A stretch of DNA of 33,897 bases from Clostridia bacterium (lineage in GTDB: Bacteria; Bacillota; Clostridia; Oscillospirales; Acutalibacteraceae). The stretch's first letter is position 1; every line of letters begins with the position of its first letter. The notes beneath the pieces were generated by a model that had not been told where the DNA came from, did no database searches, and was given only the letters and a program-made list of their open reading frames with translations. Both the position numbers and the translations under genes were made by a program. Shown piece by piece: positions 16,701 to 33,897 of this stretch. The DNA is taken from NCBI GenBank assembly GCA_017436285.1, contig JAFSDL010000063.1, positions 1-33,897 on the forward strand, in the 5' to 3' direction.

Positions 16701-18450
16701 GGTCAACGATTTTACTTGCCTCGTTATAAAGGTTACCACCCTGAACGGGGTTATAGTTCCAAACAGCATCACCATACATTCCCGGCTCATAAGGATAAGA
16801 GCCTGTGCCGTAATATGACTGCTGAACAAGACGTCCGGTGTCATGAGCATTAATTAAGTTAACATTACCTTTTGTGTCATATTTGTTTTTTGTAGTCCCG
16901 CCAATATTAACAGAGCCTATGTTAATACCGCCTGAGGTGAACGTACCCGTGTAATCTGAGCTAAAGCCCACCTGTATGGGTAACGATGTGTCTTGGTTGC
17001 TTTTTGCAGCAACAACATCATTGCTCAGGTCCTCCATATAGGTAAGTGCACCACCCCAATCCAAATCAATACCGATTTTGTAATAGGAGTCATTAAGATA
17101 CACCATACCATAGTCCTTATTTATATCACTCGCTTTATTAAAATCAACAGCAAATAGCGTAAAGTCCGCAAACTCTTTGTTAAGCGACTCAAAGGTGATA
17201 TTTGCAGCTTCAGTTTGGGTTGCACCCTCAAGGAACCCATCAATATATCCTGAAAATGTGCCATTTTGTGCAGGCTCTAAAAAGAATTCTTCAACTGTTC
17301 CGTTAAAATCCAGTTCACCCTTTATATAAGCATCAGAGGAATATGTTATTACATATTGGTTAAACGCATTGCCATTGTAATTGAGAGTGTATGTATTATT
17401 TGCTTTGGTAACGGAATATTCGGATTTGTTAAGTAAAATGCTTGTCCCCTCAGAGCTTTTAACATTCACCTGAAACTCTGCCGTCTGACCACCATAGGTA
17501 ATTGTAACATTCTGTGTTCCTGACTTTGTAAAAACACTCGGAGAACAGGTGAAGCCCTCATCAATATTTTCCTTGGTACCATCAGGATAAGTTACCCCGA
17601 TAACCAAGCCCATTGTATTAACCTTTTCACCTAAATAATAATTATCCTTAACAGGCTCAGTAACAATTTTCAAGCTCTTCACAATAGGCTCCCATTTGGA
17701 ATAAAGACTTGTGCTTGCGGGAGCCATAGTAGTATCTGAAGCGATTTTTTCACCCTTGCCGTCCGGCTCGGTAAACCAACCTGCAAAAACCTTTCCATCT
17801 CTCTCGGGAGAAAGGAGATTTCCGTATTTTGCGCCTGCGGTATATGTAAATGTTTTTCTGCTGTATGAATAGTTCTTTGCATATTCATAAGTTTCTTTTG
17901 AACAGATTCTAATATCAGAAACTGTCATATTAGTGTTAGGGGAGTTATTATCAAATCGAACCTGGATATATCCTATATTTTCACCCGTTGTAAACGTCCA
18001 TTCGTTAAGTGCATTCGGAGTTGCAAATTTATTCTCTAAAGATACATAATTACCCTGAGTATCGAAATAGAAAACAAAGGCTTCTACACTGGTTGTTGTG
18101 CCGTTTGCAACATAGGATAAAACATATTCTGTACTATCTTCAACAGGCATTGAATAAAATGCACCAATTGAGCTGGTTGAAAACGTTGTGTAAACCTCAT
18201 TGCTTGTTGTGTTATTAGTAAGCACAAAGCTACCGTTTTCAATATTTGTTGTCAATGTGCTGGTTGTAGAACCATCGCCCGCAAGTGCCTTTAAATTGGC
18301 GTGATTTGCCCATTGCTCAAAAATGAATAAATTATCAAAGGTAAGCTCATAAACTCCTGTTGCAGCATGTGCTATAGGAGTAAAAAAACTCGCTACAAGT
18401 AAAACGATGCAAACACTTAGTATTACACTTTTCTTTAAATATTTCCTCAT
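13786..18450 (-). CDS. Secreted multidomain SGNH/SASA-type carbohydrate esterase with dockerin-like modules
   Basis: A 1554-residue exported protein. Residues 1-29 are a signal peptide ending AHA. About 30-200 look like a carbohydrate-binding beta-sandwich. About 200-255 are an InlB/Listeria-Bacteroides repeat (AGWFTEPDGKGEKIA). About 258-333 are a bacterial Ig-like domain (YPDGTKENIDEGFT). About 340-815 are an unassigned, possibly mutarotase-like beta region with DLDWGGALTYMEDLSND and INAHDTGRLVQQSYYG. A CDMCGKC knot near 815-822 precedes GLUG repeats (about 885-1015). Two dockerin-like pairs of calcium loops follow (DVDEDEDVDQND and DIDGDGCLNAID; DYDCDGVPFTKED and DLNSDGILDIND, about 1092-1217). 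The C-terminal 1237-1554 is an esterase domain with GQSN (S1246), WMQGESD (E1407) and DGAHY (H1534), as in SASA/CE6-type acetyl esterases. No sortase motif was seen. Its own promoter and terminator flank it. Confidence 0.85.
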   Translation of the reverse strand: MRKYLKKSVILSVCIVLLVASFFTPIAHAATGVYELTFDNLFIFEQWANHANLKALAGDGSTTSTLTTNIENGSFVLTNNTTSNEVYTTFSTSSIGAFYSMPVEDSTEYVLSYVANGTTTSVEAFVFYFDTQGNYVSLENKFATPNALNEWTFTTGENIGYIQVRFDNNSPNTNMTVSDIRICSKETYEYAKNYSYSRKTFTYTAGAKYGNLLSPERDGKVFAGWFTEPDGKGEKIASDTTMAPASTSLYSKWEPIVKSLKIVTEPVKDNYYLGEKVNTMGLVIGVTYPDGTKENIDEGFTCSPSVFTKSGTQNVTITYGGQTAEFQVNVKSSEGTSILLNKSEYSVTKANNTYTLNYNGNAFNQYVITYSSDAYIKGELDFNGTVEEFFLEPAQNGTFSGYIDGFLEGATQTEAANITFESLNKEFADFTLFAVDFNKASDINKDYGMVYLNDSYYKIGIDLDWGGALTYMEDLSNDVVAAKSNQDTSLPIQVGFSSDYTGTFTSGGINIGSVNIGGTTKNKYDTKGNVNLINAHDTGRLVQQSYYGTGSYPYEPGMYGDAVWNYNPVQGGNLYNEASKIVDLKVTENEIYVKCRPLDWAKEKQNITPSYMEAWYTLEGGMIRATCRFVDFSGYPSVTTTQELPAFYCVEPLNNFVYYSGGEAWTDSNKMVTESDLVFWGEEAGADQTFVCNENWAAYIGDDADSFGIGLYCPGQTKMFTGVFQRGTLKSLQDSDEVASDENLIPGQPAANHSSTSYIAAVDTLYFQSYKPISYCYYMTTGNVDTIRENFRKVAQTDVDICNATSTNGFCDMCGKCIAPEVNEEGIYEISNAGELHWFSNFVNKGNVDADAVLVCDITDNEGVLTGYGILAGNTSAFRTWTPIGNATYKYNGSFDGQGYTVNGLYMNDSTISYGGLFGYTASNAEIIEVGIDNSYFKGSQYIGSISGCNDGKISNSYSFYVILQGSSYAGGITGYNNGVVENCYNTGVVNATGYAGGIAGDKTNSSNISNCYYLSNCATDGSGTVESNIGSAKTIEEFANGEVAYLLQSANTEQLWGQKTNVSGYGPVFDKTGIYKVNDVKLQDTYVLAGIGDVDEDEDVDQNDYQHLVNSALSGEELVYKDMLKSDIDGDGCLNAIDSAFMYLIVNGLLDEVDVYLKGDYDCDGVPFTKEDIAAIKKGLVNQDTLNTRQKYACDLNSDGILDINDKNILSEQNENTPESVFKSMEEFFEKRNTKVNVIILAGQSNAYGASPLTQEVRNAIGNTDFSNIKIKYTNINSDDGTNNWRVHYSNSTFETYRLGIGGQADAWFGPEAGIAYHLATNEATKDEIWYIIKTTAAGTYLGGHWLYDTTGSYLNANNSENIKNDLGVYLADGMINLAAADLAELTSIYGVGNVNIRAFMWMQGESDACVEQWANQYGELQNILVNRVRNELGSWDNDSKIPFIDGAIAAYKEGINTWTYSDTVNIAKANNASHWFVPKNTTGNVINQTTAGLYQNTSGSTTQLTNSIWVDTSTCLSKLENNNENGENDGAHYCGASMLDIGMWFAMGMLVF

Positions 18451-18776: not shown

Positions 18777-18945
18777 AAGGGAACGGGGCAACCCACCACC
18801 GCTGACGCGGTCCCCCTCCCTATTTGCCCAAGGGCAAACAGGGATGATAAGCTTCGCGTTACTTTTACATACTTGCAACTTTATAATGCCGACCGCAGGT
18901 CCCGACACTCCTCACTCCTCACTCTTAATTCCTAACTTTTTTCAA
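18777..18945. repeat. Dispersed intergenic repeat, composite copy
   Basis: This is the body of a 327-base spacer (18729-19055) with no gene. It holds ACCGC-TGA-GCGGT-like and TTTGCCC-AA-GGGCAAA hairpins (18823-18838), then GCTTCGCGTTACTTTTACAT, CTTTATAAT, GACCGCAGGTCCCGA (18891-18905) and several CTCCTCACT units. GACCGCAGGTCCCGA recurs exactly at 33821-33835. The GGAGGGGGACC hairpin module near 33775 recurs here in the opposite orientation (18795-18820). The base composition (long C and G runs) differs from that of the neighbouring genes. Confidence 0.7.
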
Positions 18946-22471: not shown

Positions 22472-24193
22472 ATGATACCAAGAAATGAACATCCGAATCC
22501 GAATTTTAAAAGAAATGACTATATAATCCTTAATGGCGAATGGGATTTTGAATTTGATTTTGGCGATAGCGGTAAGGAAAGAAAAATGTTTGCCGTTGAT
22601 GCTCCCTTTTCAAAAAAAATCAATGTACCCTTCTGTCCCGAAAGTGAGCTTTCAGGCATCGGCTACAAGGATTTTATGGCGGCTGTCTGGTACAAAAGAA
22701 CTGTTAATATTTCCGAAGAACAGTTAAAGGGAAAGGCTTTTATTGTATTCGGTGCAGTTGATTTCCACGCAAGCGTTTATGTAAACGGTGAGCTTGCAGG
22801 TGAGCATTTCGGTGGCTACACATCCTTCAGAATTGATGCAACAAAATACTTAAACACCGGCGAAAACACAATTACAGTTTGCGCTCAGGACGATACCCGT
22901 TCACCCTTACAGGCTCGTGGCAAGCAGAGTGAGCTTGTTTATTCCCACGATTGTGACTACACAAGAACAACAGGTATCTGGCAGACAGTTTATATGGATT
23001 TCTGCCCCGAAAATTATATTAAATCAGTAAAATATTTCCCCAATATCACAGATGGCACTCTCACAATCCACGCAGAGCTTGTAGGTAACGGTACATTCTC
23101 TGCAAAGGCTTTCTGGGATGGTAAAGAGGTTGGCGTTGCTTCAACTGAAGCACTCGGTCAGACTGCAACTGTTACTCTCAACCTTTCCGAAAAGCATCTT
23201 TGGGAGGTTGGAAAGGGCGGTCTTTACTCCCTCAACCTTTCTTTTGGTGGTGACGAGGTTTCAAGCTATTTCGGTCTTCGTGAGGTCAAGCTTACAGATA
23301 AAGCAATCAACATCAACGGTGAACCCGTTTTCCAGAGACTTGTTCTCGACCAGGGCTTCTACCCTGACGGAATTTATACCGCACCTACTGCGGAAGCTCT
23401 TAAAAATGATATTCTTCTTTCTATGGAAGTAGGTTTCAATGGTGCAAGACTTCATCAGAAAATTTTCGAACCCCTCTTCCTTCACTATTGTGATGAATTA
23501 GGCTACATTGTGTGGGGTGAGCACGGTAACTGGGGTGCAGACCACACTAATTTTGAATCTCTGCGTTATTTCCTTCTTGAAATTGAAGAGGAAATTGAAA
23601 GAGATTTCAACCACCCTGCTCTTATCGGTTGGTGTCCTTATAACGAAACCTGGGATGTTAACGGCAGAAAGCAGGACGATGATGTTATCAGAATAGTTTA
23701 CAGAACTGTTAAAGCTCTTGATAAAACCCGTCCCTGCATTGATACAAGCGGTAATTTCCACGTTGAAACAGATATTTTTGATGTTCACGATTATGACCAG
23801 GACTGCGAGCTTTTCAAGAGTCATTACGAGGACCTTACAGACAAAAATATCCTTTTCGACCATCAGGGACATCGCCAGCCTTGGACTGGCGAGCCTGTAT
23901 TTATGAGTGAATATGGCGGAATCCGAGTTGAGCTTAAGGAATTCGAAGAAAATGACAGAGAAAAGGCATGGGGCTACGGCAATGCCGCAACAAGCCTTGA
24001 CGAATTCTATGCCCGCTATGACGGACTCACAACAGCCTTGATTGACTGTCCCAAAATGATAGGCTTCTGCTACACTCAGCTTACTGATGTTGAGCAGGAA
24101 TTGAATGGTATTTACAAATATGACAGAACAAAGAAATTTGATTCTGAAATTCTTTACAAAATCAACACAAAGAAAGCTGCTATTGAAAAATAA
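22472..24193 (+). CDS. Glycoside hydrolase family 2 enzyme, beta-galactosidase/glucuronidase type
   Basis: Retaining beta-glycosidase of clan GH-A. The 573 residues have no signal peptide, so the enzyme is cytoplasmic. The sugar-binding jelly-roll (about 1-180) contains LNGEWDFEFDF, WYKRTVNI, VYVNGELAGEHFGGYTSFRID and TRTTGIWQTVYMD. An Ig-like domain follows, then the TIM barrel from about 300 (GFNGARLHQKIFEPLFLHYCDELGYIVWGE). The acid/base is E392 in WCPYNETWD and the nucleophile is E480 in FMSEYGGIR. It is shorter than LacZ and lacks the C-terminal domains. It sits 12 bases after mnmG and 14 before a GH39-like gene; the specific substrate is not predictable. Confidence 0.9.
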   Translation: MIPRNEHPNPNFKRNDYIILNGEWDFEFDFGDSGKERKMFAVDAPFSKKINVPFCPESELSGIGYKDFMAAVWYKRTVNISEEQLKGKAFIVFGAVDFHASVYVNGELAGEHFGGYTSFRIDATKYLNTGENTITVCAQDDTRSPLQARGKQSELVYSHDCDYTRTTGIWQTVYMDFCPENYIKSVKYFPNITDGTLTIHAELVGNGTFSAKAFWDGKEVGVASTEALGQTATVTLNLSEKHLWEVGKGGLYSLNLSFGGDEVSSYFGLREVKLTDKAININGEPVFQRLVLDQGFYPDGIYTAPTAEALKNDILLSMEVGFNGARLHQKIFEPLFLHYCDELGYIVWGEHGNWGADHTNFESLRYFLLEIEEEIERDFNHPALIGWCPYNETWDVNGRKQDDDVIRIVYRTVKALDKTRPCIDTSGNFHVETDIFDVHDYDQDCELFKSHYEDLTDKNILFDHQGHRQPWTGEPVFMSEYGGIRVELKEFEENDREKAWGYGNAATSLDEFYARYDGLTTALIDCPKMIGFCYTQLTDVEQELNGIYKYDRTKKFDSEILYKINTKKAAIEK

Positions 24194-24207
24194 AGGATTG
24201 TGGATTT

Positions 24208-25896
24208 ATGAAAGCCTTTAAAAAAATTCTATGCGTTGTTATTCCCGTAATTATTGTCGGACTTTCAGTTTTTGGTGTTATCTCGGCAGGTGTTTTCAAT
24301 AAATTCACCTTTACTGTTGATGCAACCAAAACCACCAACACATTACATAATGTTGTAAATAATGTAAATATATGGTCAATTGAAGGCAACCCCTTTGTTA
24401 ATGCAACAGTTAATGAAGAAAACAACATTTTCGAATTTGTTGATTATGTTCAGTTTATGCAATGCTCAGGTGGTACGGAAGCCCGCGACCTTTTCAAAGA
24501 TCCTCTTGACAGAACCGTTCTTGACGACTACGACTTTACAGTTCTTATTGAAAACTGCAGAGGTGTTTTAGAATTAGGCGGAAAGCCAATGCTTAAATTA
24601 GGTAGCGTCCCCCTTAAATATTCCGAAAAAGCATCTACAGACGCGGGCTTTGGTATGAACCGCTATCCCCCCGATGATTACGATGTTTATTATGACTACA
24701 TAAAGGCAATTGCAAAAGCTCTTGTTAAGGAATTCGGCAAAAAAGAGGTTCTTTCATGGCGTTTCGGTGTTATGACCGAATACGAGAATTACGATTGGTT
24801 CGTTGGCTCAGACAGTGAGGATGATGAAATTCTTGCAAAGGAAAGTGCCGAGGCTTACTGCAAGCTTTACGACTATACCGCACAAGCACTTGTCGATGTT
24901 TTAGGCAAGGATGTTTTTGTTGGTGCTCACTCAATGAGCGTTACTGAAGGGCTTTGGGATGAGGCTATATTCATTGAGCATTGTGCTAAAGGCAAAAACT
25001 ACAAAACAGGTGAAACCGGCTCACCTCTCAAATACCTTTCCGCCTCCTTTTACGATTCAACCCCCGGTGACTATACCGACGGCTATACTCTTCCCGAAAC
25101 AATTGCTTATATAAGAGGTGTTGCAGAGGCTAACGGCTTAACCGACCTTATTTACGGTATCGACGAGGGCAGAATACTCTGTGGTGTAAACAGTGGCGCA
25201 AACAATGACGAATTGCTCACAAGAACCTGCGGTTATACCTATCAGGCAGCTTATGATGCTCGCCTTATTGCACAGATGTTCAATAATGACATCGCTTATT
25301 TCTCAGCCTGGTCCTACCTTTCAGGCGGATTTTTAAGCGGTAACCCCACAGTAAGCTACCATGTTGCGAAAAATGCTGCTAAAATGGCAGGTGCACAGCT
25401 TGCACATACCGAAAAAACCGAAGAAGGTATTATCATCGGTGGCGAAATTGACGCTGTTTCTGCTTTTAATGAAGATGCTGAAACGCTTTATGTTATGGCT
25501 TACAATTTCAAAAATGACCTTGATTACAAAACAAGTGCGGAATTGAATTTTGAAATTAATGCTCCCCAATTTGACGGTAAAAAAGTAAAAATCACCACCT
25601 ATACAATAGATGATGATTGCAACTATTTTGATGAATGGGTTGAGGACAGAAAAACCTATAACATAGGTGACGACTGCTTCAACTGGTCACCCGATGACCC
25701 CGAAATTGATGCCACCACAACTCTTGAAAACCAAGAGGCGAGAGATATTTATTTCAATGAGCTTTATAGTAAATACACCGAATGCTCAAGGCTTGTTCCC
25801 ACAGAAGAGACCGTAAAGGTTGAAAACGGAAAAATCCTTCTCAACAAAACTCTCAACCCTCACGCAGTTGTTTTCTATGAAATAACCGCAATATAA
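24208..25896 (+). CDS. Membrane-anchored GH39-like glycoside hydrolase
   Basis: A 562-residue protein with an N-terminal hydrophobic segment at about 5-27 (ILCVVIPVIIVGLSVFGVIS), an uncleaved anchor or signal peptide, so the enzyme should act outside the cell. The TIM-barrel part resembles GH39/GH-A xylosidases: E191 in WRFGVMTEYENYDWF is the candidate acid/base and E320 in YGIDEGRIL the candidate nucleophile. The C-terminal part (VSAFNEDAETLYVMAYNFKND to the end) is a beta-sandwich like those following GH39 barrels. The usual Asn before the acid/base is Thr190 here. It is last in the five-gene operon and is closed by a terminator 6 bases downstream. Family assignment is moderate. Confidence 0.7.
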   Translation: MKAFKKILCVVIPVIIVGLSVFGVISAGVFNKFTFTVDATKTTNTLHNVVNNVNIWSIEGNPFVNATVNEENNIFEFVDYVQFMQCSGGTEARDLFKDPLDRTVLDDYDFTVLIENCRGVLELGGKPMLKLGSVPLKYSEKASTDAGFGMNRYPPDDYDVYYDYIKAIAKALVKEFGKKEVLSWRFGVMTEYENYDWFVGSDSEDDEILAKESAEAYCKLYDYTAQALVDVLGKDVFVGAHSMSVTEGLWDEAIFIEHCAKGKNYKTGETGSPLKYLSASFYDSTPGDYTDGYTLPETIAYIRGVAEANGLTDLIYGIDEGRILCGVNSGANNDELLTRTCGYTYQAAYDARLIAQMFNNDIAYFSAWSYLSGGFLSGNPTVSYHVAKNAAKMAGAQLAHTEKTEEGIIIGGEIDAVSAFNEDAETLYVMAYNFKNDLDYKTSAELNFEINAPQFDGKKVKITTYTIDDDCNYFDEWVEDRKTYNIGDDCFNWSPDDPEIDATTTLENQEARDIYFNELYSKYTECSRLVPTEETVKVENGKILLNKTLNPHAVVFYEITAI

Positions 25897-25901
25897 AAAA
25901 C

Positions 25902-25939
25902 AAACTGCTTTACTCTTAATTGGTAAGGCAGTTTATCTT
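25902..25939. terminator. Bidirectional terminator between convergent genes
   Basis: 12-base-pair stem (25902-25913 with 25923-25934), nine-base loop, one wobble. On the minus strand it is followed by GTTTGTTTTTTATATT, on the plus strand by ATCTTTTA. Confidence 0.82.
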
Positions 25940-26179
25940 TTAGTCATCAATATTATCTCTGTCAAAAAGTGGTGAATTAAAAAAATCGTTTAGCGAAATT
26001 CCTAAACCATCGCATATTTCATAAATTATCCTTAATTTCATACTTGGATATGAGCATTTCATTATTGTACTTAGTGTAGATTGTGGTACACCGCTTTTTA
26101 GATACAATTGATATTGAGTGAGCTTACTTTCTTCACATAATTCCTTTATTCTTAATGCAACTGCTTCATTTAAATGCAC
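25940..26179 (-). CDS. XRE-family HTH regulator (third in window)
   Basis: A DNA-binding protein of 79 residues if started at the GTG at 26179, which I prefer because GGAG lies 8 bases upstream and the protein then begins VHLNEAVALRIKELC, the usual start of this family. An upstream in-frame GTG/ATG at 26209/26203 would add up to 10 residues. The helix-turn-helix is LTQYQLYLKSGVPQSTLSTI, followed by the typical GLGISLNDFFNSPLFD tail. It is unlike the two XRE proteins near the left end. It diverges from a small ORF at 26310, and four AAGTATAG-type boxes lie in the shared region, so it probably controls itself and that ORF. Confidence 0.82.
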   Translation of the reverse strand: MHLNEAVALRIKELCEESKLTQYQLYLKSGVPQSTLSTIMKCSYPSMKLRIIYEICDGLGISLNDFFNSPLFDRDNIDD

Positions 26180-26190
26180 TTTTCCCACTC

Positions 26191-26245
26191 CTCTATACTT
26201 CATTTGCACGATAAAAGTATAGAGTATAGCTTCACAATTATACTT
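26191..26245. promoter_or_regulatory. AAGTATAG-type operator boxes between divergent genes
   Basis: Two inverted pairs: CTCTATACTT (26191-26200) with AAGTATAGAG (26215-26224), a perfect 10-base match, and AGTATAG (26223-26229) with TATACTT (26239-26245). A TATAAT on the minus strand at 26237-26242 overlaps the last box, consistent with autorepression of the XRE gene. Confidence 0.55.
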
Positions 26246-26532: not shown

Positions 26533-27753
26533 TTATTTTCCTGCCTTCTTGGAATATTTCATCTTATAAATAATTCTCATAAGGTGTGCATCAATTTTTC
26601 CGATGGGCTTAACATCTGCATAAAGCTCTGCGCCAACTGCAGTTTTTGCTGCCTTTTCCATAACCAATTCAACTGCTTCTGCATCGTACTGATTACCTGC
26701 TACACAAACTGCTCCATTATCCTTAACAAGAACTGCATTTTTGTTGCCGAGAGCCCTTGCAACCTTTTTGCTTGTTTTGAGAGTGCTTGAGGGGTTAAAC
26801 ACTGCACATTTAACAACAGGTCCGCAAAGCTGAGCAAAGTCATCAAGAAGAGGCTTCATTGTTTTGCCCTTTCTGGACATTGCAACAACAAAATCATTCT
26901 TTGTGTGACGGATGAATTTAACATCCTCTCTCTTTTTGTAGATAGCCCAATGCATATCTGCACTGTCGGGGATTTCGCCACCGCCTACCCATGCACCGCT
27001 TTTTGTGTCGATAATAGCAGCCTGTTTGCCTTCTTCACCAACAAAGAAGCAGTTGCCCTTTCTTTCACTATCACAAGGAGCGAATTCCTTTGCCGGCTTA
27101 TATTTTTCACCTGATTTGAAAACATCGGTAACATAATCAACAACGCCACAGAAGGTGTCAATAGCTTTACCTGAAACCTCTGCACAACGAGCCGCAATAA
27201 ATTTCTCGCAAACTCTTTCAAGAGCATTTGCAACTGCGAAGGCATCCTCATAGCTTTCACCAAGGCAAACTGCACCGTGATGCTTCATAATAGCTGCCTT
27301 TGAGGTTGAACGCTCAAGAGCGCCGATAACCCCCTGACGAAGCTTGGGCTGACCGGGAAGACCATAGGATGCACAGGGTACATCTGTACCAAGAATTTCT
27401 GCATCCTCGCCATCAATATTGTTAATATCAAGACCAAGAGTGCTTACAACAGAAGCATTCTTCTGATGAGTGTGAATAACAAAATTGATGTTGGGACGAA
27501 GCTCGTAGCAGGAGGCGTGAATACCTTTTTCTGAAGAGGGCTTAACATCACCCTCATAGGAAAGGTCTGCAATATTAACAAGAACAATATCATCGGGAGT
27601 AAGAACATCATAAGCCATACCGCTGGGAGTGATAACAAACTGCTTATCATTAACTCTGCAGCTGATGTTACCCCAGGTTCTTACAATAAGTCCTGCTTCC
27701 AAAAGCTCGTGACCTGCTCTGATGACTAATTCTTTTGCTTCTAAAATATCCAT
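26533..27753 (-). CDS. Two-domain class II aldolase/adducin family protein
   Basis: Predicted zinc-dependent aldolase or epimerase. The N-terminal domain (about 1-200) has all residues used by fuculose-phosphate-type aldolases: TWGNISCRV, E75 in KPSSEKGIHA, H94 and H96 in FVIHTHQ and H158-H159 in IMKHHGAVCLG. A second copy of the same fold (about 260-395) follows but has lost these residues: SADMHWAIYKKR instead of the Glu segment, FIRHTKND instead of HTH and VKDNGAVC instead of KHHG. That half is therefore probably structural or ligand-binding. Single-domain aldolases are about 215 residues. The gene lies 62 bases downstream of a class III PLP enzyme on the same strand. GAGGAGA precedes the ATG by 6 bases. 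Confidence 0.87.
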   Translation of the reverse strand: MDILEAKELVIRAGHELLEAGLIVRTWGNISCRVNDKQFVITPSGMAYDVLTPDDIVLVNIADLSYEGDVKPSSEKGIHASCYELRPNINFVIHTHQKNASVVSTLGLDINNIDGEDAEILGTDVPCASYGLPGQPKLRQGVIGALERSTSKAAIMKHHGAVCLGESYEDAFAVANALERVCEKFIAARCAEVSGKAIDTFCGVVDYVTDVFKSGEKYKPAKEFAPCDSERKGNCFFVGEEGKQAAIIDTKSGAWVGGGEIPDSADMHWAIYKKREDVKFIRHTKNDFVVAMSRKGKTMKPLLDDFAQLCGPVVKCAVFNPSSTLKTSKKVARALGNKNAVLVKDNGAVCVAGNQYDAEAVELVMEKAAKTAVGAELYADVKPIGKIDAHLMRIIYKMKYSKKAGK

Positions 27754-27778
27754 AAAAATCTCCTCTCTGGAGTTTTAG

Positions 27779-27802
27779 AAAGCCACGGAAAACCGTGGCT
27801 TT
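27779..27802 (-). other. Intercistronic hairpin between PLP enzyme and aldolase genes
   Basis: Perfect 10-base-pair stem (27779-27788 with 27793-27802), four-base loop. The T-run lies on the plus strand (27801-27812). In the direction of transcription only CTTTCTAAAA follows, so it is more likely a partial terminator, processing site or mRNA stabiliser than a full stop. Confidence 0.5.
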
Positions 27803-27815
27803 TCTGTTTTTTAAA

Positions 27816-29294
27816 TTATTCTTTAACTGCAACGTTTGCGAATACTCTGTCAAATCTTCTGAGAGCTTCGTCAATAAGCTCAGGTGTGTACTGAGCATTA
27901 GTGTAAAGACGGCTTCCTGCAAGAGTAACAAGACCTTCTGCCATATATGCTGCACCCATATGCTGCATTTCTTTCTTTCTTTCGCTTGTTGCGGAAAGAA
28001 CTCCGGGAATTTCCCAAGGCTTAGACCAGTTGATTGAGTAGTGCATTGTACCAACTGTGTCAATATGGCAAACTGAGCCCTGGTTGAATGCAACGAAGGG
28101 AAGGTTATATTTCTTAATGAGCTCCTGAAGACCCTTTGTAAGTCTGTCACCCATTTCGCCTGCCTTCTGACAAGCATTCTGTTTATCAATCTCTTCAAGT
28201 GTGTAGTAACCTGCAACACAAGAAAGAGGAGTAGCAGCCATTGTACCGCCCATAAATGCCTTCTTAACCTTTTCGCCACTTGCATCAAGACCTGCACCGA
28301 GGTATTTCATATATTCCTTCTTACCACCGATACCGCCTGCACCGGGATAACCACCGGCAATAACCTTACCGAAGATTGTAAGGTCAGGAGAAACACCATA
28401 GTAGCCCTGTGCACCTGCCATACCGATACGGAAGCCTGTAACAACCTCATCAAAGATAAGGAGTGCGCCATATTTACGGCAAAGTCTTTCAACGCCCTTG
28501 TTGAAGTCTTTATCAAGAGGTCTTGTACCGCTTTCGGGACCGATAGGCTCCATAAATACAGCAGCAGTACCGCCACGGAACTGATTAAGACGAAGAACTC
28601 TTTCAAGAGAATCAAGGTCATTGGGGAAGAATTCCTGTGTATGCTTGAAAAGGTAGAGCGGAACTCCGTGTGCCTGAGTGAATTTTGAACCGGGAACACG
28701 GATACTGTAACCGAGCTGGTCAGACCAACCGTGGTAAGCACCACCCATTTTTACAATGTTTTTATTTTTTGTTGCAAGTCTTGCAACACGAACAGCTGCC
28801 ATACAAGCCTCTGTACCTGAACCGAGCATACGGAACATATCGCAGGTTTCAACGCTGTCGCAGATTTTCTTTGCAAGCTTATATTCAAACTCGTGGAAAA
28901 GACCTGTTGAAGGGCCACAGGTATTGAGAAGGTCAATAACCTGATCTCTTACTACCTTGGGGTTTGAGCCGAGAACTGTGGGGCCACCTGCCTGAAGGAA
29001 GTCGAAATACTCGTTGCCGTCAATATCATAGAGCATCATTCCGTCTGCCTTTGTGAAAACAAGGGGGAAGGGATAGTTGAAGGCAAGGTTATGCTGAACA
29101 CCACCGGGAATAACCTGTTTTGCTTCTTCAATCATTTCCTTACTCTTAGCGCACTTTTTGTTGAAGTATTCTTCTTCGTAGTTTTTAAGCACGTCGGGTT
29201 TAATAGTATAGATTGGTTTTTTGATGAGCTCGTCAAGCTGTTTTGTTACCGCTGCAGCATCATGATACTCATTAATAGCGAATCTTGTGTCCAT
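27816..29294 (-). CDS. Class III aminotransferase, glutamate-1-semialdehyde aminomutase-like (copy 1)
   Basis: PLP-dependent enzyme of fold type I. The 492 residues are longer than HemL (about 430) because of an N-terminal extension of about 55 residues. AKQVIPGGVQHNLAFNYPFP and DGMMLYDIDGNEYFDF start the common fold. SGTEACMAAVRVARLAT binds the cofactor phosphate, LLIFDEVVTGFR contacts the pyridine, and K310 in IFGKVIAGGYPGAGG is the Schiff-base lysine. I start at the ATG at 29294, which has AGGAGGTG 5-6 bases upstream; the open frame goes 17 codons further without a ribosome site. No haem genes are nearby, and a second, diverged relative lies in the divergent operon. A role in amino-compound metabolism, not haem synthesis, is therefore more likely. 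Confidence 0.88.
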   Translation of the reverse strand: MDTRFAINEYHDAAAVTKQLDELIKKPIYTIKPDVLKNYEEEYFNKKCAKSKEMIEEAKQVIPGGVQHNLAFNYPFPLVFTKADGMMLYDIDGNEYFDFLQAGGPTVLGSNPKVVRDQVIDLLNTCGPSTGLFHEFEYKLAKKICDSVETCDMFRMLGSGTEACMAAVRVARLATKNKNIVKMGGAYHGWSDQLGYSIRVPGSKFTQAHGVPLYLFKHTQEFFPNDLDSLERVLRLNQFRGGTAAVFMEPIGPESGTRPLDKDFNKGVERLCRKYGALLIFDEVVTGFRIGMAGAQGYYGVSPDLTIFGKVIAGGYPGAGGIGGKKEYMKYLGAGLDASGEKVKKAFMGGTMAATPLSCVAGYYTLEEIDKQNACQKAGEMGDRLTKGLQELIKKYNLPFVAFNQGSVCHIDTVGTMHYSINWSKPWEIPGVLSATSERKKEMQHMGAAYMAEGLVTLAGSRLYTNAQYTPELIDEALRRFDRVFANVAVKE

Positions 29295-29325
29295 AAAGAC
29301 ACCTCCTGAAATAGAGTTTGATAAC

Positions 29326-29349
29326 AAAAGTGAATTTGTATTCACTTTT
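29326..29349. promoter_or_regulatory. Operator-like palindrome next to the -10 box
   Basis: Perfect inverted repeat with 10-base arms (AAAAGTGAAT and ATTCACTTTT) around TTGT, directly downstream of the -10 box of the leftward promoter. The core GTGAAT-N4-ATTCAC is repeated in related form at 29385-29400. Confidence 0.65.
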
Positions 29350-29377
29350 ATTATACATTATTATAATAAATTGTCAA
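29350..29377 (-). promoter_or_regulatory. Promoter of the leftward aminotransferase-aldolase operon
   Basis: Minus strand: TTGACA (29372-29377), 16-base spacer, TATAAT (29350-29355), both perfect hexamers. Confidence 0.82.
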
Positions 29378-29384
29378 GAACGCG

Positions 29385-29400
29385 GTGAATTCAAATTCAA
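29385..29400. promoter_or_regulatory. Second operator-like site upstream of the -35 box
   Basis: GTGAAT-N4-ATTCAA: same half-sites and spacing as the palindrome at 29330-29345 except the last base. The two cores are 55 bases apart, about five helical turns. The rest of this 312-base spacer (29295-29606) contains AT-rich sequence, an AAACAGG/CCTGTTT inverted repeat (29479-29517) and the rightward promoter. Confidence 0.5.
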
Positions 29401-29536
29401 CAAAATAAAAGCTCACTTTTTATGAACTTTTTATAAGAATTTTGTCAAAACAAGCTCTTTTTTCCTGAAAAGAATTAAAAACAGGTTTTTGTGTAATTTT
29501 TCAACATATTCCTGTTTAATTATTTTTTAGTATTTG

Positions 29537-29565
29537 TTGACTTTGCCCGAAACCTCTGCTAAAAT
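29537..29565 (+). promoter_or_regulatory. Promoter of the rightward operon
   Basis: TTGACT (29537-29542), 17-base spacer, TAAAAT (29560-29565) with TGC upstream (extended -10). Confidence 0.7.
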
Positions 29566-29606
29566 ATAATGGACTGAATTCTATTTTTAAAAAGGAGGCA
29601 ATCGCT

Positions 29607-30374
29607 TTGCAAAATTTAATGGATTCAAAAACACTTGCGTACATAAATATGTATGCGGTTCTCGGTACTTTGGAAAACCTTTGCGAAATCGTTCCCGAAG
29701 CATCAGAACTTCTGCAGGGCAAAAAGCCCATTTCAATCGGATTAGAGGTTAAGGACGGTCCCGCGGCTACTCTTTACTTCAAAAACGGCAAATGCCGTAT
29801 GGAACAGGGTTGCAGTAACTGTGATGTTAAACTCCCCTTCTCTAGCTGTGAAAAATTCAATGGTCTTATTGATGGTACAGTGACTCCCATACCTTCAAAG
29901 GGATTTACACACATCAAATTCCTTCTCAAAGAATTTACCGCTCTTACTGATTTACTTTCAAAATATATGAGAGCAAGTGAAGAAGACCTTAAAGACCCTG
30001 TTTTCTTTGAGAGAAGCACAATGCTTATGCTTTACACCATCGGTGTTGCCATCGCTCAGATCGGTAACAATGATGAAATCGGTAAATTCAGCGCAAAATA
30101 TATTGCAGATGGCAGTGTTATGATGGGTATCAAAAACGGTCCCGCAGTTGAGCTTGTCTGCAAAGACCATCGTCTTGTAACTCTCAAAAAAGCTCCCGAG
30201 AAATATCGTGCGGCTATGATTTTCGAATCAATCGAAACAGCTCGTGCTCTTTTTGATGGTAATGTTAATGCTCTTACCTGCATCGGTACAGGTAAAATTG
30301 AAATGCACGGTCTTGTTAGTATGCTTGACAATGTTAACCGCATACTTGACAGAGTTGCATTATATCTTGCATAA
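29607..30374 (+). CDS. Tandem SCP2-like domain protein, unknown function
   Basis: A 255-residue cytoplasmic protein that starts at TTG, 8 bases after AAAGGAGG; an ATG four codons later is a less well placed alternative. It appears to be an internal duplication. Each half has a helix, a beta-sheet with a glycine turn (ISIGLEVKDGPAATLYFKNG in the first; SVMMGIKNGPAVELVCKDH in the second), a loss-of-charge loop, and a closing helix (FLLKEFTALTDLLSKYM; VSMLDNVNRILDRVALYL). This pattern resembles SCP2/sterol-carrier-like folds, which hold hydrophobic ligands. Two cysteines lie in CSNCDVKLPFSSC. It is first in the operon, 12 bases before a class III PLP enzyme. No enzymatic motif is visible. Confidence 0.65.
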   Translation: MQNLMDSKTLAYINMYAVLGTLENLCEIVPEASELLQGKKPISIGLEVKDGPAATLYFKNGKCRMEQGCSNCDVKLPFSSCEKFNGLIDGTVTPIPSKGFTHIKFLLKEFTALTDLLSKYMRASEEDLKDPVFFERSTMLMLYTIGVAIAQIGNNDEIGKFSAKYIADGSVMMGIKNGPAVELVCKDHRLVTLKKAPEKYRAAMIFESIETARALFDGNVNALTCIGTGKIEMHGLVSMLDNVNRILDRVALYLA

Positions 30375-30386
30375 GGAGGTAGCAAA

Positions 30387-31655
30387 ATGAGTGAAAAATT
30401 CCCTTTATACAAAACAACAAAATCAGATGAATGGTATGCTCGTGCTGCCCAGGTAATTCCCTCAGGTGTTTACGGACATCTCGGTCCTGCTGAAGGTCAG
30501 TTCATTCCTGTTAACAGATGGCCTCGTTTTTCAGAAAAGGCAAAAGGCTCATATTTCTGGGATGTTGACGGAAATAAATATATTGACTATATGTGTGCTT
30601 ATGGCCCCAATGTGCTTGGCTATGGCGATGAAGATGTTGATGCTGCCGCTATTGAGCAGATAAAGAAAGGAAACTGTGTAACATCTCCCGATAAAATTAT
30701 GGTTGAATGTGCAGAGCTTCTCGTTGATACAGTAAACTGTGCTGACTGGGCATTCTTTGCAAAAAATGGTAACGATGCTACTCAGGGTGCAATTCTTACC
30801 GCTCGTGCTCATACTCACAGAAAGAAACTTATTTTCTTCAACGGTTTCTATCATGGTGTTTCCCCCATGGTTCAGAAAATCGACTATCCCGGTGTTACTC
30901 CCGAAGATGTTGCAAACAATCTCTACACTCCTTGGGACGACATTGAAAATTTCAAGAGGCTTCTTGCAGAAAACGAAGGCGAAATTGCCGCTGTAATTGC
31001 TCAGCCTTACAACCACGGCAACTTTAACGACAACTCTTTCCCCATTGATGGTTTCTGGAAAGAAGTTCGCGAGCTTTGCACAAAGAATGAAATCGTTCTT
31101 ATTGTTGACGACGTTCGTTGCGGTTTCCGTCTTGACCTTGCAGGTAGTGACCATTTCTTTGGCTTTGAAGCTGATATTATCTGCTTCTGTAAAGCTCTTG
31201 CAAACGGCTACAATATGTCTGCTTTCTGCGGTAAGGAATTCCTTAAAAATGCCGCATCAAGCCTTTCATACACAGGTTCTTATTGGATGAGTGCCGTTCC
31301 TTTTGCTGCTTGTATAGCAACAATCAACAAGCTCAAAAAGCTGGATGCTCCCAAGCTTTTCGATACACTCGGCAGAGAGCTTACAACAGGCTTCAAAAAA
31401 GCAGGTGCAGAACACGGCTTTGACCTTGTTGTTTCAGGTGCTCCCGCACTCTTCTATTTAAGAATTGCAAACGATGATTCTCTTCTTCTTCATCAGGATT
31501 GGGTTGCTGAATGTGTAAACCGTGGTTTGTTCATCACATCTCACCACAACCATTTCATTAACGCTTCCCTTACCCACGAAGATATTAACCGCTCTATTGA
31601 AATTGCAGAAGATGCATTCAAAGCAGTTAAGAAAAATCATCCCGAATTAGGCTAA
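30387..31655 (+). CDS. Class III aminotransferase, glutamate-1-semialdehyde aminomutase-like (copy 2)
   Basis: PLP-dependent fold type I enzyme of 422 residues, close to HemL length. AAQVIPSGVYGHLGPAEGQF and GSYFWDVDGNKYIDYMCAYG open the fold. KNGNDATQGAILTARAHTHR occupies the cofactor-phosphate segment, with Asn-Asp where most relatives have Gly-Thr-Glu. VLIVDDVRCGFR carries the pyridine-contact Asp (second residue Asp instead of the usual Glu). K269 in CFCKALANGYNMSAFCG is the Schiff-base lysine. AAGGAGGT precedes the ATG. It is clearly different from copy 1 across the divide (27816-29294). Aminotransferase or aminomutase activity on a small sugar-like or keto substrate is the inference. 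Confidence 0.87.
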   Translation: MSEKFPLYKTTKSDEWYARAAQVIPSGVYGHLGPAEGQFIPVNRWPRFSEKAKGSYFWDVDGNKYIDYMCAYGPNVLGYGDEDVDAAAIEQIKKGNCVTSPDKIMVECAELLVDTVNCADWAFFAKNGNDATQGAILTARAHTHRKKLIFFNGFYHGVSPMVQKIDYPGVTPEDVANNLYTPWDDIENFKRLLAENEGEIAAVIAQPYNHGNFNDNSFPIDGFWKEVRELCTKNEIVLIVDDVRCGFRLDLAGSDHFFGFEADIICFCKALANGYNMSAFCGKEFLKNAASSLSYTGSYWMSAVPFAACIATINKLKKLDAPKLFDTLGRELTTGFKKAGAEHGFDLVVSGAPALFYLRIANDDSLLLHQDWVAECVNRGLFITSHHNHFINASLTHEDINRSIEIAEDAFKAVKKNHPELG

Positions 31656-31665
31656 TATTTTGGAA

Positions 31666-31687
31666 TTAAACCGAGTTTTCGGTTAAT
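31666..31687 (+). other. Small hairpin between aminotransferase and transketolase genes
   Basis: AACCGA with TCGGTT around a four-base loop, in the 58-base gap. No T-run follows, so read-through to the transketolase genes is expected. Confidence 0.35.
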
Positions 31688-31713
31688 CAAATAAACTTTA
31701 GGAGGCTTTTATT

Positions 31714-32586
31714 ATGGCTCTTTCAAAACAGGAGTGGCTTGCTCTTGAAAAGAAAGCAAATGAGCTCCGTAACCTCTGCCTTGATACAACTTACTGGGCA
31801 GGTTCAGGTCATATCGGTGGCGGTATGAGTGTTATGGACATTATGACAGTGTGCTATCACAAATATATGCACATTAAGGTTGAAGATCCCAACTGGGAAG
31901 ACCGCGACAGATTCATTCTCAGTAAAGGTCATGCAGGTATTGCTTATGCACCTGTTCTTTGCGACCTTGGCTTCAACGACAAGGAAATGCTTAAAACATT
32001 TAACCTTTCAGGTTCAAAAATGGGTATGCACCTTGACTCAAACAAGGTTGTAGGCGTTGACGCTTCAACAGGCTCTCTCGGTCACGGTCTTTCAATCGGT
32101 GTTGGTACTGCTCTTGCAGCAAGACTTCTGAAAAAAGACTATAAAACATTCGTTGTTCTCGGTGACGGTGAGCTTGACGAAGGCTCCAACTGGGAAGCAG
32201 CAATGAGTGCAGCTCATTTCAAGCTTACAAACCTTATCACTTTTGTTGACCGTAACCACAATATGATTGACGGTAACACAGAAGATGTTATGGCTCTTGA
32301 ACCCCTTGCAGACAAATGGGAAGCATTCGGCTTTATCGTTAAGAAAATTGACGGTAACAACATCAAAGAGCTTTGCGAAGCTATTGACTTTGCTTATGAA
32401 AACGAAACTGATAAACCTGTTCTTATCCTTTGCGATACAGTTAAGGGTTGCGGTATCGACTTTATTGAAGGCGATTTCAGATGGCACTACGGTGCATTTG
32501 ATGATGAAAAATACGAAAAGGGTAAAAAATCTCTTGAAGAAACTTATCAGAAACGTGTTGCACGTGCAGAAAAGGAGGCTGAATAA
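31714..32586 (+). CDS. Transketolase N-terminal subunit
   Basis: Thiamine-diphosphate-binding half of a split transketolase, which moves two-carbon ketol units between sugars. The 290 residues contain GHIGGGMSVMDIMTVCYHKYM, the start of the cofactor site; FILSKGHAGIAYAPVL; MGMHLDSN; GSLGHGLSIGVGTALAARLL; and the thiamine-diphosphate motif GDGELDEGSNWEAA from G150 to the metal-ligand region FVDRNHNMIDG. TAGGAGGC precedes the ATG. The C-terminal partner follows after 2 bases, so the two halves form one enzyme. The donor and acceptor sugars are not predictable. Its place behind an aminotransferase suggests a dedicated copy, not the housekeeping one. Confidence 0.95.
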   Translation: MALSKQEWLALEKKANELRNLCLDTTYWAGSGHIGGGMSVMDIMTVCYHKYMHIKVEDPNWEDRDRFILSKGHAGIAYAPVLCDLGFNDKEMLKTFNLSGSKMGMHLDSNKVVGVDASTGSLGHGLSIGVGTALAARLLKKDYKTFVVLGDGELDEGSNWEAAMSAAHFKLTNLITFVDRNHNMIDGNTEDVMALEPLADKWEAFGFIVKKIDGNNIKELCEAIDFAYENETDKPVLILCDTVKGCGIDFIEGDFRWHYGAFDDEKYEKGKKSLEETYQKRVARAEKEAE

Positions 32587-32588
32587 TT

Positions 32589-33599
32589 ATGGCAGGCGGA
32601 TTAAGTTACACAGCTGAACAATCAACATCTCTCTCCACAGCCGAAATTTACGGTCAGGCTCTCGTTGAGTTGGCAGAAGCACATCCTGAGGTTGTTGCTC
32701 TTACTGCTGACCTTGCAAAATCAACAAAAATAGGTGATTTCCAGAAGAAATTCCCCGACCGTTTCTTTAATGTAGGTATTGCAGAACAGAATATGTTCGG
32801 TGTTGCTGCAGGTATGGCTAAGGCAGGTCTTGTTCCTTTCCTTTCAACCTTCTCTCAGTTCGCATCCTTCCGTTCAGCAGACCAGCTCCACACAGATCTT
32901 TGCTACCAGAATATCAATGCAAAAGTTATTGCTACTCATTCAGGTACATCCTTCGGTCAGGCAGGTTCAACTCACCACGCTATCTGCGACCTTGCTTTGA
33001 CACGTTCTATTCCTAATCTTACAGTTATCTGCCCCGCTGACGGTTACGAAACCTATAATGCAGTTATGGCAGCATATAACACACCCGGTCCTTTCTATAT
33101 CAGAATTAACCGTGGTTTTGACCGTGTTCTTTATAAAGATGCTAACTACGGCTTTGAAGTAGGTAAAGCAGTTGAAGTTCATGAAGGTTCAGATATTACA
33201 ATTATCGCTTGCGGTTCTTGTGTATTCCAGGCTTTCCAGGCTGCAGAATTCCTTGAGAAAGCGGACGGACTTAAAGTTCGCGTTCTTGATATGCACACAA
33301 TTAAACCTCTCGATAAAGAAGCTGTTCTTAAAGCAGTTATGGACACTCGCCGTATTATCACAGTTGAAGACCATACAGTTATCGGTGGTCTCGGTAGCGC
33401 AGTTGCAGAGGTTGTTGTTGAATCCGGTAAGGGTTGCGCATTCAAGAAACTTGGTGTTCAGGATACATTCGCACCTATCGGTCTTCACGAAGACATTATG
33501 AGCTATATCGGTATCGACTCAAACGGCATTATCGAAGCAGTTCGTGAAGTAATGAAGGCTGATTTTGAGGAAGACAACGACTGGGACGACGAGTTTTAA
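32589..33599 (+). CDS. Transketolase C-terminal subunit
   Basis: Pyrimidine-binding half of the split transketolase. The 336 residues include STAEIYGQALVELAEAHPEV, ALTADLAKSTKIGDFQKKFP and E66 in FFNVGIAEQNMFGVAAGMAKAG, the glutamate that activates thiamine diphosphate. THSGTSFGQAGSTHHAICDLAL carries the catalytic-site histidines, and the C-terminal Rossmann-like domain runs from about 200 (TIIACGSCVFQAFQAAEFL, VEDHTVIGGLGSAVAEVV). The ATG lies 2 bases after the partner gene stop, and its ribosome site AAGGAGG is inside that gene. A 110-base imperfect palindrome begins right after its stop. Confidence 0.95.
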   Translation: MAGGLSYTAEQSTSLSTAEIYGQALVELAEAHPEVVALTADLAKSTKIGDFQKKFPDRFFNVGIAEQNMFGVAAGMAKAGLVPFLSTFSQFASFRSADQLHTDLCYQNINAKVIATHSGTSFGQAGSTHHAICDLALTRSIPNLTVICPADGYETYNAVMAAYNTPGPFYIRINRGFDRVLYKDANYGFEVGKAVEVHEGSDITIIACGSCVFQAFQAAEFLEKADGLKVRVLDMHTIKPLDKEAVLKAVMDTRRIITVEDHTVIGGLGSAVAEVVVESGKGCAFKKLGVQDTFAPIGLHEDIMSYIGIDSNGIIEAVREVMKADFEEDNDWDDEF

Positions 33600-33601
33600 T
33601 G

Positions 33602-33711
33602 TTTTTTTGCGAATATGCAGGAATCTTTGCGTTTTAGCGACCCGAACTCGCGTACCTATGTACGCTTCGGGGTCACTAAATCCGCAAATCTCCCCACATC
33701 TTCACAAAAAA
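33602..33711. repeat. 110-base imperfect palindrome (foldback element)
   Basis: The two arms, meeting near 33657, pair along almost their whole length. Outside are TTTTTTT (33602-33608) and AAAAAA (33706-33711). Next come GCGAA/TTCAC and TGCAGGA/CCCCACA-type partial pairings. TTTGCG (33626-33631) pairs with CGCAAA (33683-33688), TTTAG with CTAAA, GACCC (33639-33643) with GGGTC (33670-33674), and GCGTAC with GTACGC around CTAT. T-runs lie at the wrong ends for a terminator. It resembles a foldback or MITE-like element. Confidence 0.7.
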
Positions 33712-33737
33712 GAGTGAAGCATTAAGACAAGGAGAAT

Positions 33738-33860
33738 CAGTTTTCGGTATGCGAAGCCTCGCCCTCCTGCTTCAGGAGGAGGGGGGACCACCGTCAGGTG
33801 GTGGGAGGTCCCAAAATGTTGACCGCAGGTCCCGAAACTCCTCACTTTCAACTCCTCACT
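33738..33860. repeat. Dispersed intergenic repeat, second clear copy
   Basis: Holds a CCTCCTG/CAGGAGG hairpin, a GGGACCACC/GGTGGT hairpin, GACCGCAGGTCCCGA (33821-33835) and CTCCTCACT units. The last two modules are shared with 18891-18935 in the same order. The GGAGGGGGACC module is shared with 18795-18820 in inverted order. GC-rich compared with the neighbouring genes. Confidence 0.7.
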
Positions 33861-33882
33861 AAATCGAAAGGAATGATTTCTC

Positions 33883-33897
33883 ATGGCAAATACACAA
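33883..33897 (+). CDS. Start of a further gene, cut by the window end
   Basis: Only five codons are visible (MANTQ). AAAGGA lies 10 bases upstream of the ATG. It follows the transketolase genes on the same strand after 283 bases of repeat sequence, so it could belong to the same functional cluster, possibly with its own promoter. The product cannot be identified from five residues. Confidence 0.5.

Follow-up and report, generated by a model that had tools for sequence, protein, structure and literature searches.

Which compound is handled by a gene set that combines two PLP enzymes, a tandem aldolase, SCP2-like proteins and a split transketolase? The question arises at one end of contig JAFSDL010000063.1 of a Clostridia bacterium, which we analyzed in its entirety (33,897 bp, hereafter the window). 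The original prediction described two operons diverging from a 312-base region and proposed a dedicated route for an amino-sugar, an amino-polyol or a related compound. The list of open reading frames and Pfam searches confirmed the reading frames and the family labels of six genes, and the gap between the starts of B and C (29295-29606) measures exactly 312 bases. The features of the locus are the following:

26533..27753, minus strand: A, tandem class II aldolase of 406 aa with two Aldolase_II stretches (PF00596, 2.2e-62)
27816..29294, minus strand: B, class III PLP enzyme of 492 aa (PF00202, 1e-50)
29330..29345, no strand: putative TetR-type operator GTGAATTTGTATTCAC, the strict pattern being found once in the window
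29385..29400, no strand: second, weaker palindrome around TGAATTCAAATTCA, seen in the sequence
29607..30374, plus strand: C, double SCP2-like protein of 255 aa, with a TTG start after AAGGAGG
30387..31655, plus strand: D, class III PLP enzyme of 422 aa, FumI-like (PF00202, 4.2e-41)
31714..32586, plus strand: E, N-terminal transketolase half (PF00456, Transketolase_N)
32589..33599, plus strand: F, C-terminal transketolase half with an altered acceptor pocket (PF02779/PF02780, Transket_pyr and Transketolase_C)
33883..33897, plus strand: G, opening codons of another double SCP2-like protein, truncated where the contig ends

The start of B is our choice (ATG at 29294), and the list of open reading frames has GTG at 29345. 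The further gene expected past F begins with an ATG 15 bases before the contig end, and relatives carry 91 distinct full-length copies of it.

Conservation, co-inheritance and a common operator

Both the genes themselves and the linkage between them have good support. All five genes C-D-E-F-G were found together in 71 of 80 loci of relatives (L080-L159), each with a flank of at most 10 kb and some ended by contig ends. The pair A-B is usually elsewhere in these relatives and lies beside the core in 17 of the 80 loci, so that the divergent arrangement holds for the window but is mostly local. Both parts are adjacent in several genera (L054, L071, L157, L158), and one genome (L071) has nine contiguous genes, i.e., the seven described here plus a TetR regulator and an FGGY kinase. 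Operon counts left out distant PLP relatives (L073-L078), and residue counts were restricted to proteins within a length range. As two sets of loci (L040-L079 and L080-L159) partly hold the same genomes, e.g., L040 and L087, we recounted on distinct sequences, which reduced 108 F, 112 E and 114 upstream regions to 97, 103 and 105, respectively.

To the extent that co-occurrence can be read across 150 genomes of the family, the two parts are inherited together: D is present in 38 (including a 152-residue fragment in G083), B in 36 and both in 34 (Fisher p 8e-27, ignoring kinship). Two genomes have C-D-E-F-G without B (G536, G682) and two have B without D (G047, G073). In a set of 60 family genomes, 17 carry D, and precisely these 17 carry the F-type transketolase as well. 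Copies of B are 75-77% identical in families f9, f42 and f115.

The same rare operator is found at the B and at the C operons, and a TetR gene accompanies the system in relatives. The form GTGAATnnnnATTCAC is the putative binding site of the TetR protein. In 1.42 Mb of loci L080-L159, 24 of the 29 strict copies are found in the 400 bp upstream of C. Upstream of B the operator was found in 22 of 33 cases; this count is limited to L303-L336 because L303-L332 and L345-L364 share genomes, and the script's figure of 33/53 includes the duplicates. In divergent loci, a single operator was counted for both genes.

The proposed check for co-occurrence in other genomes thus came out in favor of one system, and we rejected the idea that A-B are chance neighbors of the core on the grounds of co-inheritance and the common operator. 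A and B with the kinase might instead form a pathway separate from C-G, both being favored by the same gut niche. The 63 of 80 loci (within the same flanks and contig ends) where A-B and the core are not together and the four genomes with only one of B and D speak for this explanation, but it is very unlikely given the 34 shared genomes, the same operator at both operons and the repeated adjacency across genera. Hence, the A-B and C-G sets look like one undescribed, dedicated and co-regulated pathway of uncultured gut Clostridia. Our literature search for the gene set and its substrate, within the library and terms used, found no description.

The PLP enzymes, the aldolase and the kinase

Two enzymes resembling GSA aminomutase had been announced. 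The label fits B, whose best matches are GSA-aminomutase models and structures, but not D, which is FumI-like instead (289 bits to FumI vs 168 to the next). B shares the class III fold with HemL, yet it scores 284 and 270 bits against HemL models with cut-offs of 398 and 527, and at the latter cut-off (TIGR00713, NCBIfam) D scores 197. In a tree of PLP enzymes that included HemL and GabT and left out FumI itself, HemL and GabT fell outside both the B and the D groups. A role of either PLP enzyme in haem synthesis was rejected because the curated cut-offs are not reached. The presumed PLP lysines are invariant (K310 in 41/41 unique B sequences, K269 in 107/107 of D).

Among solved class III enzymes, the closest relative of D is 6hbs, an aminopentol aminotransferase (E 4e-85, the next at 3e-48), and D is predicted from this similarity to be an aminotransferase. 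FumI, from the fumonisin degradation of Sphingopyxis, deaminates a sphinganine-like compound: pyruvate receives the 2-amino group from hydrolysed fumonisin. D shares the motifs CAYGPN, VDDVR.GFR and TGS.W.SAVP with it in the alignment; unlike that of FumI, the substrate of D is a predicted one. We know of no transketolase or SCP2 gene in the fumonisin degradation pathway, and the three plasmid relatives of D whose neighborhoods were examined (two from Variovorax and one from Agrobacterium, 37-39% identity) have no annotated transketolase-half or SCP2 neighbors.

The N-domain of A has the metal histidines and catalytic Glu of class II aldolases of the fuculose-phosphate aldolase type: T26, G28, N29, S73, S74, E75, H94, H96 and H159, whose metal-binding and catalytic roles we assume, are kept in all 38 unique orthologues. 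The C-domain is degenerate, and position 346, which matches H159, is never His in these orthologues. In relatives, an FGGY kinase gene adjoins B-A. The earlier statement that no phosphotransferase is in view therefore applies to the window but not to the system. The kinase is closest to xylulokinase models. An open reading frame downstream in the window's genus (L087:16239-17819), FGGY-looking by eye, was rejected as the pathway kinase; it had no match at E 1e-10 among the kinases adjoining B-A.

Fucose and rhamnose pathways break down ketoses with an FGGY kinase and a class II aldolase. The present system resembles them in that a kinase adjoins an aldolase whose N-domain keeps their residues. 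It differs in that a class III PLP enzyme replaces the isomerase, the aldolase is a tandem and none of the sugar-specific models among the matches listed reaches its cut-off. FGGY-aldolase modules normally handle sugars, which counts against the breakdown of a lipid.

The SCP2-like proteins and the transketolase pocket

The label SCP2-like given to C was right, although the window copy is weak against PF02036 (E 0.027, short of the cut-off). Matches at E <= 1 are found in 28 of 44 C orthologues (best 2.8e-7), and the predicted structure of C has the fold of SCP2, a lipid carrier; ligand binding is predicted accordingly. G is homologous to C (hhalign probability 97, E 8e-11).

The closest solved relatives of both transketolase halves are 6yak and 6yaj, the Carboxydothermus hydrogenoformans split transketolase, with the former being the best for E. 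The equivalents of E. coli H26, H66, H100 and H261 are kept in 103/103 distinct E sequences and E411, H461 and H473 in 97/97 of F. E/F thus retain what we take to be the ThDP-activating Glu and the catalytic histidines of a transketolase. F departs from ordinary sugar-phosphate transketolases at Asp469 and Arg358: in 97/97 distinct sequences D469 is replaced by A and E468 by Q, and position 358 is never R (A 89, S 4, T 2, G 2). Two distant F-type copies (L190, L191) keep R358 and have A or S at 469. R520, S385 and H461, presumably part of the phosphate site, are retained in F.

For comparison, 22 other split-type copies were examined, and 17 of them keep Asp469. The window genome's other split transketolase (L173) keeps both D469 and R358. 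Because of this separate standard copy, a housekeeping pentose phosphate role for E/F was rejected; the F-type is restricted to 17 of 60 family genomes. The C. hydrogenoformans enzyme shares the two-gene architecture and is reported to accept bulky aldehydes (PMC7661550), but in our reading of the alignment it keeps the equivalents of Asp469 and Arg358, both of which F has lost. A change at Asp469 also marks the engineered E. coli S385Y/D469T/R520Q lineage, in which an evolved line with D469T is reported to have shifted from phosphorylated aldehydes to non-polar ones (PMC5073344). In F, which retains S385 and R520, the change is natural and the residue is Ala and not Thr.

The retained R520, S385 and H461, the xylulokinase-like kinase and the residues that the aldolase has in common with fuculose-phosphate aldolase would all suit a hydrophilic amino-sugar, amino-polyol or aminocyclitol, the SCP2-like proteins then having another role. 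We consider such a substrate unlikely, since the core operon carries two double SCP2 proteins, Asp469 is lost in every distinct copy of F, D is close to FumI, SPT- and KDSR-like genes adjoin C-D in one genus, and no sugar transporter recurred with the core among the loci clustered. As a whole the original prediction is partly supported: the idea of a single dedicated pathway stands, but a lipophilic amino-alcohol appears likelier as its substrate.

Proposed breakdown or synthesis of sphingoid bases

We propose, with a probability of roughly 45%, that the nine genes act as one co-regulated pathway by which lipophilic 2-amino-polyols, most likely long-chain bases of the sphingoid type, are catabolized; the substrate, its chain length, the direction and the assignment of enzymes to bases are our inferences. 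C and G would bind the hydrophobic chain. D would transaminate 2-amino-1,3-diols of the sphinganine type to 1,3-dihydroxy-2-ketones, which E/F would cut between C2 and C3, giving a long-chain aldehyde and passing the C2 unit to a sugar phosphate. B would perform the same transamination on a 3,4-dihydroxy (phytosphingosine-type) base or similar amino-polyol, the FGGY kinase would phosphorylate the resulting ketone, and A would split it into dihydroxyacetone phosphate and an aldehyde. The lipophilic substrate is suggested by the SCP2 fold of C, the closeness of D to FumI, the loss of Asp469 and the SPT/KDSR-like neighbors; linkage, co-inheritance, the operator, the homology of C and G, the D469T precedent, the kinase beside B-A and the nine-gene locus also favor breakdown.

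The same substrates might be handled in the opposite direction, as sphingoid-base biosynthesis without SPT. The transketolase would then couple a C2 ketol with a fatty aldehyde, giving the 1,3-dihydroxy-2-ketone for amination by D; from dihydroxyacetone phosphate and a fatty aldehyde, A and B would produce a 4-hydroxylated base. C-D lie directly upstream of SPT-like and ketosphinganine-reductase-like (KdsR-like) genes in two genomes of one genus (G257, G270), an order that suggests a biosynthetic setting and argues against breakdown. Both matches are under curated cut-offs: the SPT-like gene of G257 has 536 bits for a cut-off of 640 (NCBIfam, the best model among the matches listed) and the KdsR-like gene 229 for 400. 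The SPT-KDSR pair was counted in 9/12. All four genomes of the order with C-D but without the F-type transketolase (G184, G189, G257, G270) have an SPT-like gene, and 12 of 13 genomes with E-F-G had none at >=70% identity in the same search.

In the family, neutral ceramidase (PF04734) is rare: 6 of 150 genomes have a match above the cut-off, one of them a strong match, so that free sphingoid bases would need another source. Cultures of Flavonifractor plautii are reported to produce phytosphingosine (PMC11914097). These observations favor synthesis, but we give it a low probability. SPT-like genes are in any case common in the order (35 of 245 genomes at >=52% identity), and their exclusivity with D within the family is not significant (0 shared, p 0.20). 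With SPT and KDSR present, D would be redundant, and synthesis from dihydroxyacetone phosphate would require a phosphatase. A kinase beside an aldolase typically points to catabolism, as does a regulator of the TetR repressor type.

The proposed breakdown also has to accommodate, besides the rare ceramidase, the weak SPT/KdsR-like matches, the genomes lacking B or D and the residues kept in F, a genome with C-D but neither F-type transketolase nor SPT-like gene (G596). Moreover, no transporter or fatty-acid gene recurred beside the core in most loci, among clustered neighbors of which few are annotated.

Sphingolipids, which serve as signals in the gut, are abundant in the diet and in host tissue; to our knowledge, little is known of how anaerobic Firmicutes build or dismantle the sphingolipid backbone. 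This question becomes testable with a conserved, co-regulated set whose transketolase has been re-shaped by nature. More tentatively still, the set may represent a lyase-free and SPT-free sphingoid-base pathway of anaerobic gut Clostridia, with a transaminase and a sugar-type C-C enzyme for each base (transketolase for 1,3-diols, kinase and class II aldolase for 3,4-diols), SCP2 proteins as carriers and one TetR switch. Lipids would be treated like ketoses, and action on a lipid would be, as far as we know, a new role for transketolase. Reconstituted enzymes could couple the transketolase and transaminase steps on lipophilic aldehydes, for which the E. coli transketolase needed engineering. 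The breakdown of sphingoid bases by a kinase and sphingosine-1-phosphate lyase (PMC6148460) also ends in a long-chain aldehyde, the end product that we propose, but here cleavage would follow transamination and be done by transketolase or aldolase. In line with breakdown, an aldehyde dehydrogenase gene follows E-F-G in one relative (G199), and in another (G008) one of 52% identity to it is located 5' of B-A, with one opposite-strand open reading frame between.

Conservation of the gene set

Open reading frames and family searches agree with the original prediction on its six genes and their families, and the divergent region between the two operons is exactly 312 bases long, as it had stated. 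The right-hand operon (plus strand) holds the SCP2-like gene C, the PLP enzyme D, the transketolase halves E and F and, at the edge of the window, a seventh gene:

33883 (start), plus strand: G, second double SCP2-like protein

An hhalign comparison shows G to be a homolog of C (probability 97, E 8e-11). The window is one entire contig of 33,897 bp, and the source genome is incomplete (83.7% complete). A short dispersed repeat lies 3' of F (33777-33890), with 16 further matches in the genome, one of them at window position 18885.

Scanning genome contigs with D returned MAGs labeled Oscillospiraceae, Ruminococcaceae, Clostridia or similar, many of them, going by titles, from ruminant and other animal guts. 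Only the best 80 of 176 confirmed loci were kept, and the counts are thus biased to close relatives. Among these 80, 71 carry C to G together. Seven of the remaining nine are cut by a contig end, and two (L097 and L145) truly have no E-F-G beside C-D. The left-hand pair (minus strand), i.e., the aldolase A and the first PLP enzyme B, adjoins C-G in only 17 of the best 80. Hence, the divergent layout is not general.

B and D are nevertheless linked by co-occurrence: among 150 genomes of the family, B (at least 56% identity) is found in 36, D in 38 (one a fragment), and both in 34 (Fisher p 8e-27, relatedness ignored). Outside the family, genomes G199, G507, G537, and G762 have B and also an F-type transketolase, and B is absent from the four genomes of the order with C-D and without that transketolase (G184, G189, G257, and G270). 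B is likewise missing from genome G596, where the matches are all distant, and G536 and G682 carry C-D-E-F-G in the absence of B. In more distant genomes the operon falls into two modules, C-D versus E-F-G; in G022, G199, and G537 the latter is at another site, yet still grouped. At the C-D locus of G022 (L072), an iron-containing alcohol dehydrogenase gene lies 3', along with a gene that, judged by its sequence, reads as pdxS (PLP synthesis).

Putative operator and neighboring genes

Of 105 distinct regions upstream of C, 28 carry a palindrome, GTGA-N(4-12)-TCAC, no more than 330 bp from the gene (200 base shuffles: mean 2.8, maximum 8). B has it too: 22 of 33 loci (L303-L336) show the palindrome in the 350 bp that precede the gene. 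The shuffle control for B covered all 53 loci (mean 1.7, maximum 5). The window has a strict form:

29330-29345: strict 16-base putative operator

This form has 29 copies in 1.42 Mb of D-scan loci, of which 24 are less than 400 bp upstream of C, spread over 24 of the best 80 of 176 loci, and two are near the start of B (L157 and L158). As the operator is missing from most loci, regulation through it is not universal.

An FGGY kinase gene lies near B in at least 11 of 25 B loci (10 of 24 genomes) and a TetR gene of a single cluster in at least eight, both lower bounds because the flank is just 1.5 kb at some loci. The nearest NCBIfam models of the kinase are xylulokinases, with scores below the cut-off. 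The kinases of G073 and G087 form a second subtype that shares 31-34% identity with the other B-adjacent ones; the order in G073 is B, kinase, and two single-domain aldolase-type genes. Genome G040 (L071) has everything contiguous, with a single operator between kinase, TetR, A, and B on one side and the opposing genes C to G on the other. In the window, the region directly left of A (22472-26209) encodes GH2 beta-glucuronidase-like and GH39-like proteins and a small Cro/C1-type regulator, and an ORF of 1,554 aa occupies 13786-18450 on the minus strand.

The PLP enzymes and the transketolase

The two PLP enzymes had been described as GSA-aminomutase-like. This stands for B, whose nearest relatives are GSA aminomutases, at scores far under their cut-offs, and not for D, which is nearest to FumI, the aminopentol aminotransferase of fumonisin degradation (289 bits vs 168 for the best GSA aminomutase). 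FumI transfers the 2-amino group of hydrolyzed fumonisin to pyruvate, according to an excerpt of PMC2933618. The tree suggested by the original prediction (39 rows, FumI left out, weak deep forks, and a long GabT branch) places HemL and GabT outside the B and D groups; B forms a 100/100 group, and D is inside another that also holds its Proteobacterial plasmid relatives.

The window-type transketolase retains all catalytic residues of E. coli TktA. In all 97 distinct F proteins, Asp469 (E. coli numbering) is replaced by Ala and Glu468 by Gln, and the Arg358 position is never Arg; the second split transketolase of the same genome retains both Asp469 and Arg358. In three distant F-type copies (L189-L191), position 469 is Ala or Ser and position 468 is Thr or Val; Arg358 is retained in two of them. 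Among 22 other split-type copies, 17 have Asp469 and five have different residues (L194, L195, L197, L199, and L209). The loss is thus invariant within this system, though not exclusive to it. In excerpts of PMC5073344, an evolved E. coli transketolase line with D469T shifts from phosphorylated to non-polar aldehydes, and D469T itself confers activity on aromatic aldehydes; an excerpt of PMC7661550 describes split transketolases without a linker, which may give space to bulkier aldehydes. The five exceptions, of which L194 and L195 are from G257 and G270, have non-standard residues at 461, 468 or 469 and are possibly further specialized transketolases.

Proposed chemistry and direction

D would transaminate a 2-amino-1,3-diol to an alpha-hydroxyketone, a bond arrangement that a transketolase cleaves or forms and an aldolase cannot. 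B would transaminate a 2-amino-1,3,4-triol to a ketone bearing a beta-hydroxyl; once phosphorylated, such ketones are the type of substrate that fuculose-phosphate-type aldolases split into dihydroxyacetone phosphate and an aldehyde. These products and carbon-carbon chemistries suggest that D and E/F make up one route, and that B, the kinase, and A make up a parallel one built on the same logic. As far as we found in the literature, this gene set has not been described: the enzyme families are known, and the combination, the shared operator, and the likely lipid substrate are new.

G199 has an aldehyde dehydrogenase gene 3' of E-F-G, G008 has one close to B-A, and a third copy lies some kilobases away from C-G in G043. 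Together with the kinase and the repressor-type regulator, these neighbors favor breakdown, which we tentatively prefer as the direction of the pathway (probability around 0.45). Synthesis seems rather unlikely, even if two observations favor it, or another source of bases: ceramidase is rare (6 of 150 family genomes), and genes resembling serine palmitoyltransferase (SPT) are neighbors in one genus. In G257 and G270, of one genus, C-D is directly followed by SPT-like and 3-ketodihydrosphingosine-reductase-like genes (L177:9258-13291 and L178); in G257 each model is the best match, with a score below the curated cut-off. An SPT-like gene occurs in all four genomes of the order with C-D and without the F-type transketolase, and, in the same search, at 70% identity in one (G536) of 13 E-F-G genomes. 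Since such genes are frequent in the order (35 of 245 genomes at 52% identity or more), this pattern is modest evidence. Elsewhere in uncultured Clostridia the SPT-reductase pair also stands on its own: 9 of the 12 SPT loci that were opened have it. This suggests that organisms other than the usual groups synthesize sphingoid bases.
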